From: an uncultured Pseudomonadota bacterium
Lineage (GTDB): Bacteria > Pseudomonadota > Gammaproteobacteria > Steroidobacterales > Steroidobacteraceae
Assembly: GCA_903884235.1 (NCBI GenBank)
Contig: CAISEB010000016.1
Location: 124,001 to 188,000, forward strand
Length of the DNA: 64,000 bases
Reading direction: 5' to 3'
Program-made: the position numbers and the translations under genes
In this document: piece after piece, positions 54,002 to 64,000 of the stretch
Layout of the letters: each line of letters opens with the position of its first letter
How positions within the stretch are numbered: the first letter of the stretch is position 1
The notes under the pieces: generated by a model
The model's database searches: none
Told to the model about the DNA's origin: nothing
What the model saw: only the letters and a program-made list of their open reading frames with translations

Positions 54002-55570
54002 CTACACGTTCGAGTCGGGGAACGAGGCCTTACGACGGTTCATGTAGTCGACGAGTGCCTCGTCGATCGCCGGATCGAGCGCCGGGGCCTCGTACTCGGC
54101 GAGCTGCTTCTTCCAGTAGGCGTTCGCGCGCTTGGTCATGTCGCTCGCGCCTTCCGCTTCCCACTGCTCGAAGCTGTTGTTGTCCGTCAGCGGCGAGCGG
54201 TAGAACGCCGTCTCGAAGTTCGCCTGCGTATGCGCGCAGCCGAGGAAGTGCTTGCCGGGGCCGACTTCGCGGATCGCGGACATCGCCTGGCCGTTCTCCG
54301 ACATGTCCACGCCCGACAGGAACGTCTGCATCATGCCCGCCTGGTCGGCGTCCATGACGAACTTCTCGTAGCCCATCGACAGGCCGCCTTCGAGCCAGCC
54401 TGCGGTGTGCAGCACGAAGTTGACGCCCGCGAGGCAGGTCGGCAGCAGCGTGTTCGCCGATTCGTACGCCGCCTGCGCATCGGAGATCTTCGAGCCGCAG
54501 AGCCCGCCGCCGGAGCGGAACGGGACGCCGAGGCGGCGTGCGAGCGAGGCCATCACGTACAGCACGAGTGCCGGTTCCGGCGTGCCGAAGGTCGGCGCGC
54601 CCGACTGCATCGAGATCGACGAGGCGAAGCTGCCGAAGATGACCGGCGCGCCCGGGCTCACGAGCTGGGCGAAGGCCATGCCTGCCAGCGACTCCGCCAG
54701 CGTCTGGGCGGCGGTCCCGGCCACCGTGACCGGCGACATCGCGCCGGCGAGGATGAACGGCGTGACGATCGTCGCCTGGTTCGCGCGCGCGTAGACCTTG
54801 AGCGCGCCGAGCATCGTCGAGTCGAAGGTCATCGGCGAGTTGGCGTTGATCAGGCTGACCAGGACGGTCTTGTTCTTGCCCGTCAGCGGGTCGACGAAGT
54901 CGGGGCCGAAGGCGATCTTCGCCATCTCGACCGTGTCCTCGGCGCGTTCCGGCGCCGTGACGGAGCCCATGAACGGCTTGTCGCTGTACTTGATGTGGCT
55001 GTACACCATGTCGAAGTGCCGCTTGTTGACCGGCAGGTCGACGGGTTCGCAGATGGTGCCGCCCGAGTGGTGCAGCGCCGGCGCCATGTACGCCAGCTTC
55101 ACGAAGTTCCGGAAGTCCTCGATGCGCGCGTAGCGGCGGCCATCATCCAGGCTGCGGATGAACGGCGAGCCGTACGCCGGCGCGAAGACCGTGTTCGGGC
55201 CGCCGATGACGACGTTGCGGGCGGGGTTGCGCGCGTGCTGCACGAACTCGCGCGGCGCGCTCTTCTGGACGATCGAGCGGCACATGCCGCGCGGGAAGCG
55301 GACCCGCTCGCCATCGACCTCGGCGCCGGCCGTGCGCCAGATCTCGAGTGCCTCCGGATCGTCGCGGAAGTCGATCCCGACCTCGGCGAGGATCGTGTCG
55401 GCGTTGGCCTCGATCGTCGCGAGCGCCTCGTCGCCGAGGACCTCGAAGTAGGGGATCTTGCGGGTGATGTACGGGATCGTGACCGCCGAGCGGGCGGCGC
55501 GGGCGGCCCGCTTCGCCTCGCGGCCACCGCCACGGTTACGCCGCGCCGAGACTTCCTGCTGTTCGTCCAT
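54002..55570 (-). CDS. MttB-superfamily methyltransferase (3)
   Basis: A 522-residue non-pyrrolysine MttB homologue, uninterrupted by amber codons. Landmarks are EFVQHARNPARNVVIGG, TVFAPAYGSPFIRSLDDG, HHSGGTICEPVDLPVNKRHF and SDKPFMGSVTAPERAED, closely matching copy 2. The N-terminus is again basic (RRNRGGGREAKRAARAARSA), a feature common to all three copies and not part of the barrel. The ATG at 55570 has AGGAGG about ten bases upstream. It lies between the end of the corrinoid operon and a ProVW-type importer, so a quaternary amine imported by that system is a reasonable substrate. Confidence 0.88.
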   Translation of the reverse strand: MDEQQEVSARRNRGGGREAKRAARAARSAVTIPYITRKIPYFEVLGDEALATIEANADTILAEVGIDFRDDPEALEIWRTAGAEVDGERVRFPRGMCRSIVQKSAPREFVQHARNPARNVVIGGPNTVFAPAYGSPFIRSLDDGRRYARIEDFRNFVKLAYMAPALHHSGGTICEPVDLPVNKRHFDMVYSHIKYSDKPFMGSVTAPERAEDTVEMAKIAFGPDFVDPLTGKNKTVLVSLINANSPMTFDSTMLGALKVYARANQATIVTPFILAGAMSPVTVAGTAAQTLAESLAGMAFAQLVSPGAPVIFGSFASSISMQSGAPTFGTPEPALVLYVMASLARRLGVPFRSGGGLCGSKISDAQAAYESANTLLPTCLAGVNFVLHTAGWLEGGLSMGYEKFVMDADQAGMMQTFLSGVDMSENGQAMSAIREVGPGKHFLGCAHTQANFETAFYRSPLTDNNSFEQWEAEGASDMTKRANAYWKKQLAEYEAPALDPAIDEALVDYMNRRKASFPDSNV

Positions 55571-55629: not shown

Positions 55630-56859
55630 TCAGTTTGCGGCATTCGCTTGCTTCGGAGCGGCATCGCCGGTCGACAGGGCGCGAATCACCTCCCCGGGGC
55701 CGCAGCTGCCGGCAAAGGCGCCACCCTCGGTCAGCAGGACCGGGTGGCCCGTCTGGCGCTGCAGCTGGATCAGCCAGCGCAGCGGTGCCGAGACGGGCAC
55801 GACGGCGATCCCGGGACCGGGGGTGGGTGCACCCCCCGGGACGGGGACCGGGAGGAGCGCCAGGGCGCCCCCGGGCCCCCGGACGGCGACCGGTTCGCCG
55901 GCCGGACCGAGCGTCACCCGGTAGCGGCCCTCCGGGTCCAGCGCCACGGCACCGTCCTGGGTGCCGAGCACCGCGCGGGGGGTCATCACCATGTGGCCGG
56001 TCAGGACCGTGAGGGGGTTCATGTGCTGCACGAACTCGGCGACGTAGCCGTCCGCAGGTCGCAGCACGATGTCCTCGGCAGCGCCGGTCTGGACGATGCG
56101 CCCCCCTTGCAGCACCGAGATCTGGTTGCCGAGCTTCAGGGCCTCGTCGAGATCGTGCGTCACGAACAGGATTGTCTTCCTCACGCGCGCCTGCAGCTGG
56201 CAGAGCTCGTCCTGCAGCTTCGTGCGGATCAACGGGTCGAGGGCGGAGAACGGTTCGTCCATGAGCAGGACGTCGGCGTCGGTCGCGAACGCGCGCGCGA
56301 GGCCGACGCGCTGCTGCATGCCGCCCGACAGTTCGGCGACGTGCCGATCGGCCCACTGCGCGAGCCCCACGAGTTCGAGCTTCTCGTCGACGACCCGCCG
56401 CCGGGTCGCGGCGGATTCGCCGCGCAGCTCGAGCCCAAAGCCGACGTTGTCGCGCACCGTGCGCCACGGCAGCAGCCCGAACTGCTGGAACATCATCGCG
56501 ATGGTGCCGCGCCGCAGCCGGCGCAGCGTCGAGGCATCGCAGCTCGCCACGTCGGTGATGGCGTCGCCGTCGGCGAGGAGGACCCGGCCTCGCGTCACCG
56601 GGTTCAGCCGGTTCGCGGCCCGCAGCAGCGTCGACTTGCCGGAACCGGACAGGCCCATCAGCACCGAGATGTGGCCGCGCGAGACGACGAGGCTGGCGCC
56701 GGCGACGCCGACGATGACGCCATTCTCGGCCTGGATCTCCGCGCGCGACTGGCCCGCATCGAGCGACTCGAGCGCGCGCCGGATCCGCGTCCGACCGTCG
56801 CGGCCGCGCTCCCGCGAGAACAGGATATCGACGTTCTGGAATTCGAGTGCGGTCGTCAC
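55630..56859 (-). CDS. Quaternary-amine ABC transporter ATPase (ProV/OpuAA-like)
   Basis: A 409-residue ATPase with Walker A GLSGSGKST, Q-loop MMFQQFGLLPWRTV, signature ELSGGMQQRVGLARAF, Walker B VLLMDEPFSALDP and H-loop VTHDLDEAL. The FGLLPWRTV Q-loop and an N-terminal extension before the core are typical of the glycine betaine/proline betaine branch. After about residue 270 a region (HMNPLTVLTGHMVMTP onward) replaces the usual paired CBS domains with a Gly/Pro-rich, less recognisable stretch. The GTG at 56859 overlaps the permease stop by 4 nt. No periplasmic binding protein is adjacent, which is incomplete for this family. Confidence 0.88.
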   Translation of the reverse strand: MTTALEFQNVDILFSRERGRDGRTRIRRALESLDAGQSRAEIQAENGVIVGVAGASLVVSRGHISVLMGLSGSGKSTLLRAANRLNPVTRGRVLLADGDAITDVASCDASTLRRLRRGTIAMMFQQFGLLPWRTVRDNVGFGLELRGESAATRRRVVDEKLELVGLAQWADRHVAELSGGMQQRVGLARAFATDADVLLMDEPFSALDPLIRTKLQDELCQLQARVRKTILFVTHDLDEALKLGNQISVLQGGRIVQTGAAEDIVLRPADGYVAEFVQHMNPLTVLTGHMVMTPRAVLGTQDGAVALDPEGRYRVTLGPAGEPVAVRGPGGALALLPVPVPGGAPTPGPGIAVVPVSAPLRWLIQLQRQTGHPVLLTEGGAFAGSCGPGEVIRALSTGDAAPKQANAAN

Positions 56860-57833
56860 TGTGGTCCTGCCTCGTCGGTGGAACGCGTCATTCGATCGAG
56901 GATGACCGCCAGCAGCACGATCGCAAGGCCTGCCTCGAAGCCCATGCCGACCTGCACGGCGTTCAGGGCCCGGACCACCGGCACGCCAAGGCCACCTGCA
57001 CCGACCAGCGCGGCGATCACCACCATCGACAGGCTGAGCATGATGCACTGGGTGATGCCGGCGATGATCGTGGGGGCCGCGCTCGGCAGCTCGACCTTCA
57101 GCAGCAGTTGCAGGCGCGTGGCGCCGAAGGCTTCGCCGGCCTCCCGGATCGATGCCGGGACCGAGGAGATGCCGAGATGGGTCAGCCGGATCGGCGCCGG
57201 CAGCGCGAAGATGACGGTCGAGATCAGGCCCGGGACGACACCGAGGCCGAACAGCACCAGCGTCGGCGTCAGGTACACGAATGTCGGCAGCGTCTGCATC
57301 AGGTCGAGAACGGGGCGCATCGCCGCGTGCAGGCGCGGCCTGCGTGCGGAAGCGATCCCGAGCGGAACGCCAATGATCGTCGAGGTCGTCGCCGCGACGA
57401 GCACCAGCGAGAGCGTCTCGAGGGTCGCGATCCAATAGCCCTGGTTGATGATGAACGCGAGCGCGAGCACGACGAAGATCGCGAGCGGGATCGACCGGCG
57501 CAGCCACCAGGCGAGCGCAGCCACCGCGAGGATGAGCGCCGGGGCCGGAATGGCGAGGAGCACGGACAGGACGGCATCGATGCTGCCCCTGACCACGACC
57601 GAGAGTCCGTCGAAGAACCCCGCGCCATGGTGCTTCACGAACTCGACCAGCGCCGTGACCGCATCACCAACCGGGATCTTGTGCCGGGCAACCCAGCCTT
57701 CGAAGCCGGCCGGTTCGCGCTCGGCGGTGCCCTCTGCGGCGAGCGCGAGGGCGGGAGCGAGCGCGGCGAGCGCAATGCTGCCTGCCATGGTGGTTGGCCG
57801 GGTTCTCTCGGGGCGCACCGTCGGGTGCCTCAA
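56856..57833 (-). CDS. Quaternary-amine ABC transporter permease (ProW/OpuAB-like)
   Basis: A 325-residue inner-membrane permease. The TTG at 57833 has GGGAGGT four bases upstream; the ATG at 57788 has none, although from it the N-terminus (MAGSIALAALAPALALAAEG) would look like a signal peptide. Hydrophobic segments follow, with the family-typical DLMQTLPTFVYLTPTLVLFG and the EAA-like loop REAGEAFGATRLQLLLKVEL. It probably imports glycine betaine, proline betaine or choline. It is divergent from the betIB fusion across 216 nt holding a BetI-like palindrome. Confidence 0.87.
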   Translation of the reverse strand: MRHPTVRPERTRPTTMAGSIALAALAPALALAAEGTAEREPAGFEGWVARHKIPVGDAVTALVEFVKHHGAGFFDGLSVVVRGSIDAVLSVLLAIPAPALILAVAALAWWLRRSIPLAIFVVLALAFIINQGYWIATLETLSLVLVAATTSTIIGVPLGIASARRPRLHAAMRPVLDLMQTLPTFVYLTPTLVLFGLGVVPGLISTVIFALPAPIRLTHLGISSVPASIREAGEAFGATRLQLLLKVELPSAAPTIIAGITQCIMLSLSMVVIAALVGAGGLGVPVVRALNAVQVGMGFEAGLAIVLLAVILDRMTRSTDEAGPQ

Positions 57834-57888
57834 TCCGACCTCCCTTGACCCCGTCGGCGCCGGGTCGGCATCATTCCGGGGAACCGAC

Positions 57889-57902: not shown

Positions 57903-58049
57903 ATCCGGTCGCTGTCAAGGCCGGCCCGGAAATCTCAACTATTTGATTACAAAGACAAGACATCGCAGACTCGACCGTGGCAGCGGGGCGCCGCTTCGCG
58001 GCCTAGAGACCTCTTCGCGAGGTCGGGATGGAGTACAGGGAGCAGTCAG

Positions 58050-60143
58050 CTGAACAACCAGTCAAGCAAAGGTGGGCCGTCGGATTCCGATCCCACGCGT
58101 TCCACCGGCGGCGAGCGCCTCGAGGAGGACCGCCGCGACCAACTGATCGCCGTCGCGATCGACTGCCTGGCCGAACTCGGCTATGTCGGCAGTACGCTCG
58201 CGCAGATCGCCGGTCGTGCCGGCGTCTCGCCGGGGCTCATCGCGCACTACTTCGGCGACAAGGACGGGCTCCTGGAGGCGGCATTCCGCCAGTTGAGTCG
58301 TCGCGTGCATGCCAACGTGCGCGCCAAGCTCAGGCTCGCGCGCACGCCGCGCGGTCGCGTGCAGGCGGTGATCGACGCGAACCTCGCGCCCGAGGAATTC
58401 AACCAGCGCACGGGCAATGCGTGGCTCGCCTTCTGGGGGCAGCTCCGCCACGTCCCGCAACTGCTGCGGGTGCAGCGCGCGTACCAGCGCCGCATGCTCT
58501 CGAACCTGCGCCACGCACTGCGTTCGCTCCTGCCCGAAGCCGAGGCCCGCACGCTCGCGGCCATGATCGCGGCGATGATCGACGGGGTCTGGCTGCGCGC
58601 GGCCCTGTCCGACTGGGCCGAGGCGGACAGCGAAGCCGCACGGGCGCTGCTGACGGCGTTTGTCGAAGGTCGGTTGCGCGAGCGCGCATTGCACTCCACT
58701 GTCGCGGCACCGGTTGCCGGTGCGAGCGCGAGTGGCGCGAGCAGCTTTCGCACGATCAATCCCGCCACGGGCGAGGTGCTCGCCGAGATCCGCATCGATG
58801 GCGCCGCCGACGTCGACGCCGCGGTCGCGAGGGCGGCCGAGGGCCAGCGCCGCTGGGCGGCGATGACGGGCACCGAACGCGGCCGGATCCTGCGTCGCAC
58901 GGCCGACATCCTCAGGTCACGCAATGCCGAGCTCGCCGAGCTCGAGACGCGCGATACCGGCAAGCCGATCCAGGAGACCAGCGTCGTCGACGTGATGTCC
59001 GGCGCCGACTGCCTCGAGTACTACGGTGGCATCGCCGCGACCATCGCGGGCGAGCACCTCGACCTCGGACCGGGTGCCTTCGGCTACACGCGGCGCGAGC
59101 CGCTCGGGGTCGTCGCCGGCATCGGCGCGTGGAACTATCCGATCCAGATCGCCTGCTGGAAGTCGGCGCCGGCGCTCGCCTGCGGCAACGCGATGATCTT
59201 CAAGCCCGCCGAGCTGACACCGCTGACGGCGATCGAGCTCGGCAAGGCCTTCGATGCGGCCGGCCTGCCGCCTGGCGTGTTCCAGGTGGTGCAGGGCAAG
59301 GCCGATACCGGACGCCTGCTGAGCCGGCATCCCGGCATCCGCAAGGTGTCGCTGACCGGCGAAGTCGGCACCGGCAAGGCCGTGATGAGCGATGCATCCT
59401 CCACGCTCAAGTACGTCACGCTCGAGCTGGGTGGCAAGTCGCCGCTGATCGTGTTCGACGACGCGAAGCTCGACAACGCCGTCGGCGCCGCGCTGCTCGC
59501 GAACTTCTACTCGGCGGGCGAAGTCTGCTCGAACGGCACGCGCGTCTTCGTTCACAAGAAGGTGAAGGCCGCCTTCCTCGAGAAGCTCGAGGCGCGCGTC
59601 GCCGCGATGCGCGTCGGCGATCCGCTGGATCCCGCGACGCAGGTGGGCGCGCTCATCTCCGAGGCGCACATGGAGAAAGTGCTCGGGTACATCGCGCGCG
59701 GGCGCGCCGAAGGGGCGCGCCTGCTCGTCGGCGGGCACCGCGTGACCAGCGGCGACCTCGCGAACGGGTTCTTCGTGGCGCCCACGGTCTTCGACGGATG
59801 CCACGACGACATGGCGATCGTGCGCGAGGAGATCTTCGGGCCGGTGATGAGCGTGCTCGAGTTCGAGGACGAGGATGAAGTGGTGGCGCGGGCCAACGCG
59901 ACGGACTTCGGGCTGTCGGCGGGCGTGTTCACGAACGACCTGACCCGCGGGCATCGCGTGATCGCCCGGCTCGAGGCCGGGACCTGCTGGATAAACCACT
60001 ACAACATCACGCCGATCGAGCTGCCGTTCGGAGGCCACAAGCGCTCCGGGCTCGGCCGCGAGAACGGCAAGGCCGCGATCGAGCACTACACCCAACTCAA
60101 GAGCGTCTACGTCGCGATGGGCGACGTGGACGCCCCGTACTGA
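58050..60143 (+). CDS. betI-betB: BetI (TetR) repressor fused to betaine-aldehyde dehydrogenase BetB
   Basis: One uninterrupted frame of 697 codons. Residues about 26-213 are a complete BetI: helix-turn-helix [20 protein letters not shown] and the ligand-domain [12 protein letters not shown] and DGVWLRAAL. An Ala/Ser/Gly linker ([17 protein letters not shown], 217-232) leads into BetB from FRTINPATG (233) to the end, with general base E459 (LELGGKSP) and catalytic C493 (GEVCSNGTR). The first roughly 23 residues of a normal BetB are absent. No stop separates the parts. The start is uncertain: no in-frame ATG, GTG or TTG lies nearby, and a CTG at 58050 with AGGGAG seven bases upstream is the best candidate. 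An internal TTG at 58674 with AAGG upstream could also give free BetB. betA follows by 10 nt. Confidence 0.85.
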
Positions 60144-60153
60144 GGCAGACGCC

Positions 60154-61812
60154 GTGGATGACTCGACCTACGACTACGTGATCGTCGGAGCAGGCTCTGC
60201 GGGCTGCGTGCTAGCCAACCGCCTGAGCGAGGACGGCCGGAATACCGTGCTGCTGCTCGAGTACGGTGGTTCCGATCGGTCGATCTTCGTGCAGATGCCC
60301 TCGGCTCTGGCGATTCCGATGAACAAGGAACAGTTCAACTGGTTCTACTACTCGGAACCGGAGCCCCACCTCAATGGGCGGCGCATCCATACCGCGCGCG
60401 GCAAGGTGCTGGGTGGCTCGTCCTCGATCAACGGCCTCGTCTACATCCGCGGCAACGCGTTCGACTTCCAGCGCTGGGAGGCCGAGGGTGCGCGTGGCTG
60501 GAGCTATGCCGACGTGCTGCCGTACTTCAAGCGCGCCGAGCGGCGTGCCGAGGGCGGTGACGAATATCGTGGCGGCGACGGCCCGATGGGCACGAGCTAC
60601 GGCACGGTCAAGAATCCGCTCCACGCCGCATGGCTCGCGGCGGCGAAGGAGGCCGGCTACGCGCTGACCGACGACGTCAATGGCTTCCGGCAGGAAGGCT
60701 TCGGCCGGATGGACATGACCGTCGATCGTGGCGTGCGCGCGAGCACCGCGAATGCGTACCTGAGGCCCGCGATGTCGCGCCCCAACCTGCGCGTCGAGAC
60801 CCGCGCGCTCGCGACCCAGGTGGTGTTCGAGAGCAAGCGGGCGATGGGCGTGCGCTACCAGCAGGGCAGCACCGAGCGGGTTGCCCGCGCGCGCCGCGAG
60901 GTCATCGTGTCGGCCGGATCCATCGCATCGCCGCAGCTGCTCAAGCTGTCCGGGGTAGGCCCGGGCGCGGAGCTGCAGCAGCTCGGGATCCCGGTCGTCC
61001 ACGACCTGCCAGGCGTCGGCGAGAACCTGCAGGATCACCTGGAATTCTTCTTCCAGGTCGCCTGCAAGGAGCCGGTCACCCTGTTCTCCGCGATGAGCCC
61101 GTTCGCCAAGCTCAAGATCGGCGTCGAGTGGGTCCTGCTCAAGAGCGGGCTCGGCGCGAGCAACCACTTCGAGACCTGCGGCTTCCTGCGCAGCCGCGCC
61201 GGGATCCAGTACCCGGACATCCAGTACCATTTCCTGCCGCTCGCGGTCAGCTACGACGGCAATTCGATGGCCACCGAGCACGGCTTCCAGGCGCACGTCG
61301 GGCCAATGCGCTCGAAGAGCCGCGGCAACATCCGCCTCGCGGGCCGCAACCCGCTCGACAAGCCCAAGGTGCTGTTCAACTACATGAGCCATCCGGACGA
61401 CTGGGTGGAGATGCGCGCGTGCGTGCGGCTGACGCGCGAGATCTTCGGGCAGCGCGCCTTCGATCGCTATCGCGGTCGCGAGATCCAGCCCGGCGCGAAC
61501 GTGACCAGCGACGAGCAGATCGACGAGTTCATCCGCCAGAAGGTCGAGACGGCGTACCACCCGTCCTGCTCCAACAAGATGGGCGCGGCCGACGATCCGA
61601 TGGCGGTCGTGGATCCCGAGACGCGCGTCCGCGGCCTCGAGGGGATCCGCGTGGTCGATTCGTCGATCATGCCGTCGATCACCAACGGCAACCTGAACGC
61701 GCCGACGATCATGATCGCGGAGAAGGCCGCCGATCATATCCTCGGCAAGCCGCTGCTGCGTTCGGATGCCCCGTTCTACGAGTCGCCGAACTGGCAGACG
61801 ACCCAGCGCTGA
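60154..61812 (+). CDS. betA: Choline dehydrogenase
   Basis: A 552-residue GMC flavoprotein oxidising choline to betaine aldehyde. It has YDYVIVGAGSAGCVLANRLS, VLGGSSSINGLVYIRG, GVGENLQDHLEFFFQ, and the catalytic His and Asn in AYHPSCSNKMG and NGNLNAPTIMIAEKAA. The length and the NKEQFNWFYYSEPE segment fit BetA. It starts at a GTG 10 nt after the BetI-BetB gene, with GAGG upstream, so the product of BetA is passed to the fused dehydrogenase. It converges on the NCS1 transporter gene, 14 nt away. Confidence 0.95.
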   Translation: MDDSTYDYVIVGAGSAGCVLANRLSEDGRNTVLLLEYGGSDRSIFVQMPSALAIPMNKEQFNWFYYSEPEPHLNGRRIHTARGKVLGGSSSINGLVYIRGNAFDFQRWEAEGARGWSYADVLPYFKRAERRAEGGDEYRGGDGPMGTSYGTVKNPLHAAWLAAAKEAGYALTDDVNGFRQEGFGRMDMTVDRGVRASTANAYLRPAMSRPNLRVETRALATQVVFESKRAMGVRYQQGSTERVARARREVIVSAGSIASPQLLKLSGVGPGAELQQLGIPVVHDLPGVGENLQDHLEFFFQVACKEPVTLFSAMSPFAKLKIGVEWVLLKSGLGASNHFETCGFLRSRAGIQYPDIQYHFLPLAVSYDGNSMATEHGFQAHVGPMRSKSRGNIRLAGRNPLDKPKVLFNYMSHPDDWVEMRACVRLTREIFGQRAFDRYRGREIQPGANVTSDEQIDEFIRQKVETAYHPSCSNKMGAADDPMAVVDPETRVRGLEGIRVVDSSIMPSITNGNLNAPTIMIAEKAADHILGKPLLRSDAPFYESPNWQTTQR

Positions 61813-63392: not shown

Positions 63393-64000
63393 TCAGAATT
63401 TCCAGCCGAAGTTCATGCTGAGGACCCGCGGACGCAGCGGCGTCTGGGCCTCGATGAACTGGTCCGTGCTGGTGAACGTCGCCGCGTTCGAGTTGGAGAG
63501 GTTCTCGCCGACGATCGACACGTTCCACTGGTCCTTGGAAATGCCGAACGACGCATCGAAGGTCGAGTAGGCCGGGTCCTCGAAGCGCAGCCGGCCGGTG
63601 GTGATGACGCCCCCGCTCTCGGCGATGGACGGGTTCGAGCCGGCCTGCGTGTACGAGTGCCCGACATGCGAGGCGCCGCCCTGCAGGAACGCCTCGTACT
63701 CGCCGATGGCGAACTGATAGCGCGCCCGCACGCTGAACTGCAGCGGCGGCGAGTTTGCGGTCGGGGAGCCGATCGGGCCGTACGGATTCGTGACCGGCGC
63801 GCAAGCGGTCGGGTCGAAGACCGTGCCGCCGCAGCTCGTCGTGATCGGCTGGCCGTTGATGCCGATCAGCTGCGGCGAGTTGGTCTGGCGGCTGCGGTTC
63901 CAGGACCCTGCGGCCTGGAGAGTGAGTCCCGGAATCGGCCGGGCGACCAACGACAGCTCGAGTCCCTTCACGTCGAAATTCTGGCCATTCGTGTTGTAGA
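63393..64000 (-). CDS. TonB-dependent outer-membrane receptor (3), C-terminal fragment
   Basis: About 200 residues of the C-terminal beta-barrel of a third receptor; the gene continues past the end of the window. LELSLVARPIPGLTLQAAGS, FSVRARYQFAIGEYEAF and the ending LSMNFGWKF, with a final aromatic residue, match receptors 1 and 2. Repeated segments FDASFGISKDQWN and NLSNSNAATFTSTDQF are homologous to the same places in receptor 1, so all three belong to one paralogous group. The ligand is unknown. Confidence 0.9.
   Translation of the reverse strand, partial: YNTNGQNFDVKGLELSLVARPIPGLTLQAAGSWNRSRQTNSPQLIGINGQPITTSCGGTVFDPTACAPVTNPYGPIGSPTANSPPLQFSVRARYQFAIGEYEAFLQGGASHVGHSYTQAGSNPSIAESGGVITTGRLRFEDPAYSTFDASFGISKDQWNVSIVGENLSNSNAATFTSTDQFIEAQTPLRPRVLSMNFGWKF

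Follow-up and report, generated by a model that had tools for sequence, protein, structure and literature searches.

The choline-responsive repressor BetI and the aldehyde dehydrogenase BetB are encoded as one continuous protein in the genome of an uncultured Steroidobacteraceae bacterium. In the stretch of 64,000 nucleotides analyzed here (the window), their fused gene is shared with many relatives, is under purifying selection, and is accompanied by two operator-type sites, designated O1 and O2 (Table 1). We consider it probable, at roughly three chances in four, that the fusion is a self-repressing enzyme with a two-operator switch. As a single autoregulatory enzyme, it would bind through its BetI domain to O1, just 3′ of the promoter, and to O2, across the start codon. 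Such binding would repress betIB-betA and perhaps also the divergent choline importer, and the fusion probably also controls a TonB receptor in the genus of the window. The fusion would come off DNA in response to choline, the effector known for BetI, and its BetB domain would oxidize betaine aldehyde. That the fusion binds DNA, senses choline, represses, and is active as an enzyme is what we infer from its sequence.

Table 1. Features at the betI-betB locus, in coordinates of the window.
Feature	Position	Strand	Basis or remark
ABC transporter ATPase domain	56248..56700	-	PF00005, residues 270-420 of the ORF searched as 55633-57507; adjoins the permease
ChoW-type choline ABC permease	56856..57833	-	TIGR03416 over cut-off; divergent from the fusion
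Sigma-70-like promoter TTGACC-18-CATCAT	57845..57874	+	Motif scan; kept in most of the genus alignment
Operator-type palindrome O1, CTGAATAGCTGTTCAA	57888..57903		Alignment, site scans
Shine-Dalgarno-like GGGAG	58038..58042	+	7 nt 5′ of CTG; alignment
BetI-BetB fusion gene	58050..60143	+	CTG start, 697 codons and stop; relatives carry the same fusion
Operator-type palindrome O2, CTGAACAACCAGTCAA	58050..58065		Overlaps the start codon and codons 2-6
BetI part	58122..58685	+	Residues 25-212; TetR_N residues 32-78, TetR_C_6 residues 100-209
Variable Ala/Ser/Gly-rich linker	58686..58739	+	Residues 213-230; identity, dN/dS, pLDDT
BetB part	58740..60140	+	Residues 231-697; profile matches, invariant catalytic residues
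betA, choline dehydrogenase	60154..61812	+	TIGR01810 over cut-off

Repressor and enzyme in one chain

First, the reading frame is free of stops over all 697 codons, and a single chain matches the TetR HTH profile TetR_N (PF00440), the BetI-type C-terminal domain TetR_C_6 (PF13977), and Aldedh (residues 231-686), each above its cut-off. This confirms the proposal of an earlier note on this DNA that BetI, a linker, and BetB are joined in one protein, and the linker is indeed a variable stretch rich in Ala, Ser, and Gly. TIGR03384 (BetI) scores 201.1 bits on the fusion, or 201.4 with its in-frame neighbours, relative to a cut-off of 201.3, and is therefore passed only just; the fusion is the sole match above this cut-off in its own genome. 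The BetB part passes two NCBIfam equivalogs of betaine aldehyde dehydrogenase (BADH), TIGR01804 (676.5 vs. cut-off 668.6) and NF009725 (785 vs. 593). Its profile match begins at position 18, so that about 17 N-terminal residues are absent, rather than the 23 or so given in the earlier note, and the fusion of the window does not have a complete BetB N-terminal arm. N362, E459, and C493, the catalytic Asn, Glu, and Cys, are invariant across 70 sequences. By offset, E459 and C493 are presumably Glu252 and Cys286 of Pseudomonas aeruginosa BADH, in which we likewise take Asn153 to be the catalytic Asn. Glu252 and Cys286 are named in PDB titles of that enzyme. The AlphaFold monomer of the fusion has a mean pLDDT of 83.8, with values below 50 at the N-terminus, in the linker (219-229), and in some BetB loops; the structure matches listed are aldehyde dehydrogenases throughout, the best being 6wsa.

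Among 15 fused genes, BetI has a median dN/dS of 0.155 and BetB one of 0.157, and the linker (residues 213-232) has a dN/dS of 0.73 and an identity of 21%; 12 BetB pairs and 22 linker pairs with saturated dS are omitted from these medians. By this comparison of sequences, the two domains are under equal purifying selection, and the HTH is constrained like the enzyme.

The start of the gene is unusual. No ATG, GTG, or TTG occurs in the frame between the upstream stop and 58293, and an ATG at 58028 was rejected as the start because it lies in a different frame. Judging from relatives, translation begins with the CTG at 58050, a codon whose homolog in most other genera is TTG. CTG is aligned at this place in all nine fused genomes of the window's genus, one of which (G013) has an ATG directly 5′ of it, and TTG is the start in most relatives outside that genus. 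Gene callers limited to ATG, GTG, and TTG would thus be expected to clip the repressor half in the genus of the window.

In 76 of the 77 fused loci with room to see, betA lies directly 3′ of the fusion. Adjoining the choline transporter, a frame on the minus strand (54002-55570) encodes an MttB-family methyltransferase (PF06253, under the TIGR02369 cut-off), for which another methylamine may be the substrate. An NCS1-type permease (PF02133; 61827-63383, minus strand) is located 3′ of betA.

Distribution and history of the fusion

A continuous fusion is present in 11 of 60 related genomes, its own included. In a search of 217 genomes of the family, 56 have a stop-free match running from residue 25 or earlier to residue 697, a count of full-length fusions that leaves out pieces cut by contig ends, and in a phylum sample of 398 genomes a stop-free fusion was found in five, again with its own. 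Named genomes were scanned with the BetI part, and the best 80 of 156 loci were kept. Among the 120 loci examined, 104 have the fusion in frame, five are split or disturbed, and 11 are without one half in the stretch examined; some genomes are in this set twice, and the distinct fused loci number 79. The fusions belong to Steroidobacteraceae, Caulobacterales, and Sphingomonadaceae MAGs, and also to Acidocella, Ancylobacter, Bosea, Methylobrevis, and Faunimonas. A Komagataeibacter plasmid carries the fusion as well, and its record, the single annotated one examined, calls the gene just betB. Since the same in-frame fusion recurs in so many assemblies, named strains included, a sequencing error that hides a stop between the domains, the first objection foreseen in the earlier note, is ruled out. 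No paper on such a fusion turned up in searches of open-access PMC, and the available portion of PMC7824335 names betI and betB clusters without such a fusion.

The second objection foreseen was that close relatives might have two separate genes. Such relatives do exist (G014 and G007), but the place of both in the trees is within the fused clade, so that their split genes are taken as a later fission, and two separate genes were rejected as the ancestral state of the clade. In the BetB tree (127 distinct rows, quick method, midpoint root; rows shorter than 380 residues or with unknown residues dropped), a 98% branch has 83 fused, 15 BetB-alone, and two split rows on one side, and 18 split and nine BetB-alone rows on the other; one of the 15 BetB-alone rows (G012) is in fact a fusion truncated where its contig stops. 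The BetI tree of 107 rows, from which two disturbed and three repeated loci were excluded beforehand, needs two changes, and its bootstrap had not settled. We interpret the two changes as a single fusion, followed by a fission in G014/G007.

The TetR part has been lost in several BetB-alone relatives that retain the LN-type start, and regulation is thus dispensable in these lineages. In three loci of genus g13 (L174, L175, and L176 of G215, G217, and G219), also nested in the fused clade, the TetR part is replaced by an FdsD-like formate dehydrogenase delta domain, which is in frame with BetB via an Ala-rich linker (PF11390 match of 6.7e-22 for the L175 protein). By eye, the fusions at L136, L137, and L147 retain the BetB N-terminal arm, and the fusions of Steroidobacteraceae are without it.

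Paired operator-type sites and how they may work

In the window, O1 begins 14 bp 3′ of the only sigma-70-like promoter found (one by the scan vs. 0.0 in shuffles). In 80 of the 84 fused loci that extend far enough upstream, O1 agrees with at least 11 of the 12 fixed positions (shuffled mean 8.0), and it is the sole site at this level in a scan of the whole window, with O2 among four sites at 10 or more. BetI exerts choline-responsive repression at a palindromic box (PMC12442346). The fusion has a TTGA-type palindrome of the kind expected of BetI at its own promoter. Fifteen TetR-less loci that nest within the fused clade were scanned over 700 nt around BetB; 14 of them have no O1-type site, and L166 is the one such relative with an O1-like site. 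The genome has exact O1-type sites at two more places, on contigs C2 and C18, which were set aside for want of a clear tie to choline genes. Between O1 and O2, the genus alignment contains a second conserved TTGATT box (57943-57958 and its relatives), which agrees with the operator pattern at 9 of 12 positions here.

O2 lies over the CTG start, and it was missed in the earlier note together with the paired sites at the TonB-receptor promoter described below. Codons 1-6 resemble O1, and an in-frame TTG or CTG with AAY as the next codon is found in 56 of 87 fused loci, a set in which some genomes are repeated, cut differently. Codon 5 is Ser in 51 of these 56, always as TCA (51/51), and ACA or GCA in the other five. 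TCA makes up 68 of 1732 Ser codons (3.9%) in these genes; from codon 6 to the HTH, it makes up three of 83. The residue at codon 6 varies, and its first base is A in 49 of 56. The bias at codon 5 indicates that conservation of O2 is at the level of DNA; a protein motif, LNxQS, was discarded, since the constraint tracks bases and not residues. The first bases of O1 and O2 match in 52 of 53 loci (TT in 43, CC in nine, CT in one; L035, a cut locus in which both are the same site, is omitted), and all nine CC loci are in the window's genus, so that they possibly reflect one event. Some fusions outside the family have a single site only.

A strict pattern of two sites with 122-152 bases between them matches 48 places in 47 of the 217 family genomes, and the same pattern read backwards as a control has no match in the 217. 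Forty-four of the places lie beside fused betI coding. Thirty were examined as loci: 27 are beside BetI coding, two are at contig ends, and one is near a TonB receptor. As for the remaining 18, 17 abut the fusion gene by coordinates, and the pair in G138 is on a different contig from the BetB piece. The pattern finds 35 of the 56 full-length fusions; the 21 missed include G010, of the same genus as the window, and six of g13, and some of those missed show different spacings or weaker sites. Two loci have O1-O2 spacings of 41 and 66. The pair near a TonB receptor (L223; G067:C5:557072-557238) lies about 10 kb away from betIB of G067 and is the second pair in that genome. The frame that adjoins it resembles a GlxA/GbdR-type regulator.

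Sites of this kind also occur at a second promoter. Beyond the window, at a distance of 8.6 kb from O1, an exact O1-type site is located between gcvT and a TonB receptor whose end is at 63393-63998 of the window. It is one member of a pair of sites 167 bp apart (L204, 422-437 and 589-604; G000:C16). The pair is present in all eight testable fused genomes of the genus (G008, whose contig stops short, is left out), with spacings of 167 in G000, G006, and G001, 166 in G010, G005, G011, and G003, and 170 in G013; there is no pair on the gcvT side in G001. The pair lies anywhere between about 56 and 241 from the TonB start; what is kept is therefore the spacing between the operators. The TonB receptors that match best in G014 and G007 (BetI split) and in G009 (no BetI beside betB) have no site of at least 10/12 in 900 nt; these three genomes are mutually related, and their receptors and betB are on separate contigs. 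As control DNA, nine further loci of the window's genome, 46,521 bases in all, contain two sites of at least 11/12.

How two sites are used by one protein may be considered in two ways. In the first, a tetrameric BetB would carry two BetI dimers that grip O1 and O2 to form a repression loop, with the enzyme as the looping scaffold. BetB would thus clamp the paired operators at both the betIB and TonB promoters, O2 in the first codons would fix the rare CTG/TTG start, and second operators would be gone where BetI is split or lost. BADH of P. aeruginosa is a tetramer (PMC3554688). Matching pairs at two promoters, the steady spacing of the TonB pair, and the state of G014 and G007, which with free BetI keep O1 and are without O2, all agree with a loop. 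So does the clustering of 51 O1-O2 spacings (125-162), with 21 at 138-142, 12 at 148-152, and nine at 158-162, which suggests steps of one helical turn. However, the other nine spacings are outside these groups, and jumps of 8 and 5 between nearest relatives stand beside those of 21 (L014) and 10 (L043). The Rayleigh value has a broad peak near 11.5 (0.50) rather than a sharp one at 10.5 (0.44), with related loci not independent; the betIB pair (161) and the TonB pair (166-167) are half a turn apart, and a common phase is absent from fusions outside the family. The spacings give mixed signals on strict helical phasing and do not by themselves prove a loop. We hold looping by the tetramer to be plausible, at slightly less than even odds; it extends the explanation by an autoregulatory enzyme and does not exclude it.

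In the second, O1 and O2 are independent sites without a loop. O1 would block the promoter, O2 would be a transcription roadblock or hide the start, and the fusion would merely fix the dose of repressor to enzyme. This accords with the overlap of O2 and the start codon and with phasing that is not strict, but it leaves unexplained why the spacing of the TonB pair is so steady away from any start codon and why O2 is missing in G014 and G007 with free BetI. We regard independent action as a real possibility, to be put below even odds. That the TetR part is a decaying passenger of a gene acting solely as BetB is very improbable: the missing in-frame ATG, GTG, or TTG start and the loss of the TetR part in several relatives would fit it, but purifying selection on BetI equal to that on BetB, the wide conservation of the fusion, and the conserved operators go against it.

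An autoregulatory enzyme is favored by the retention of the fusion, the like selection on its two domains, its being the only BetI over the cut-off in the genome, the invariant N362, E459, and C493, the conservation of O1 and O2, the lack of O1 in 14 of 15 TetR-less loci, the TonB pairs, and betA downstream. The misses of the strict pattern, the odd spacings, the non-Ser codon 5 in five of 56 loci, the one-site fusions, L166, and the losses of the TetR part were counted against it. The reading of this gene in the earlier note as a repressor-enzyme fusion stands to the extent that the fusion is real, old, and selected, with an HTH as constrained as the enzyme and operator-type palindromes at its own promoter; its repression, its sensing of choline or betaine aldehyde, and a PutA-like switch, as put forward in that note, would be predictions.

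Comparison with known systems

The fusion locus shares its domains, the order betI-betB-betA, and an upstream TTGA-type palindrome with split betIBA operons. The latter, however, produce two proteins, whereas the fusion locus has one protein and two distant sites. A single operator place is found in 15 of 18 canonical split loci, the other three having a second, and the operator consists of two overlapping 16-mers 4 bp apart in 11 of the 18 (the compact form is seen, e.g., in L150, L160, and L161). In the fusion, the distant sites might correspond to this overlapping pair spread apart. In Ruegeria pomeroyi, the bet promoter likewise has two BetI-type sites and choline is the effector of BetI2, but the boxes overlap and are bound by free BetI2 (PMC12442346). 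Here, the sites are 162 bp apart and would be bound by a fusion protein.

A wider comparison is with trigger enzymes. In PutA, one chain contains a DNA-binding domain and a catabolic enzyme from the same pathway. The fusion, as judged from its domains, has the same arrangement in one chain, though PutA combines a ribbon-helix-helix with a flavoenzyme and the fusion combines TetR with an aldehyde dehydrogenase. It would thus be a trigger enzyme made from a TetR repressor and an enzyme of its own operon, retained widely among Proteobacteria, cultured strains among them. It makes testable the ideas that the quaternary structure of an enzyme shapes DNA, that repressor dose is locked to enzyme dose, and that an operator dictates the start codon.

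Repression loops of GalR and LacI use two operators, one of which is inside a gene. The fusion locus also has two operator-type sites, one intragenic, at a distance that permits a loop. In such a hypothetical loop, unlike those of GalR and LacI, the bridging part would be a metabolic enzyme.
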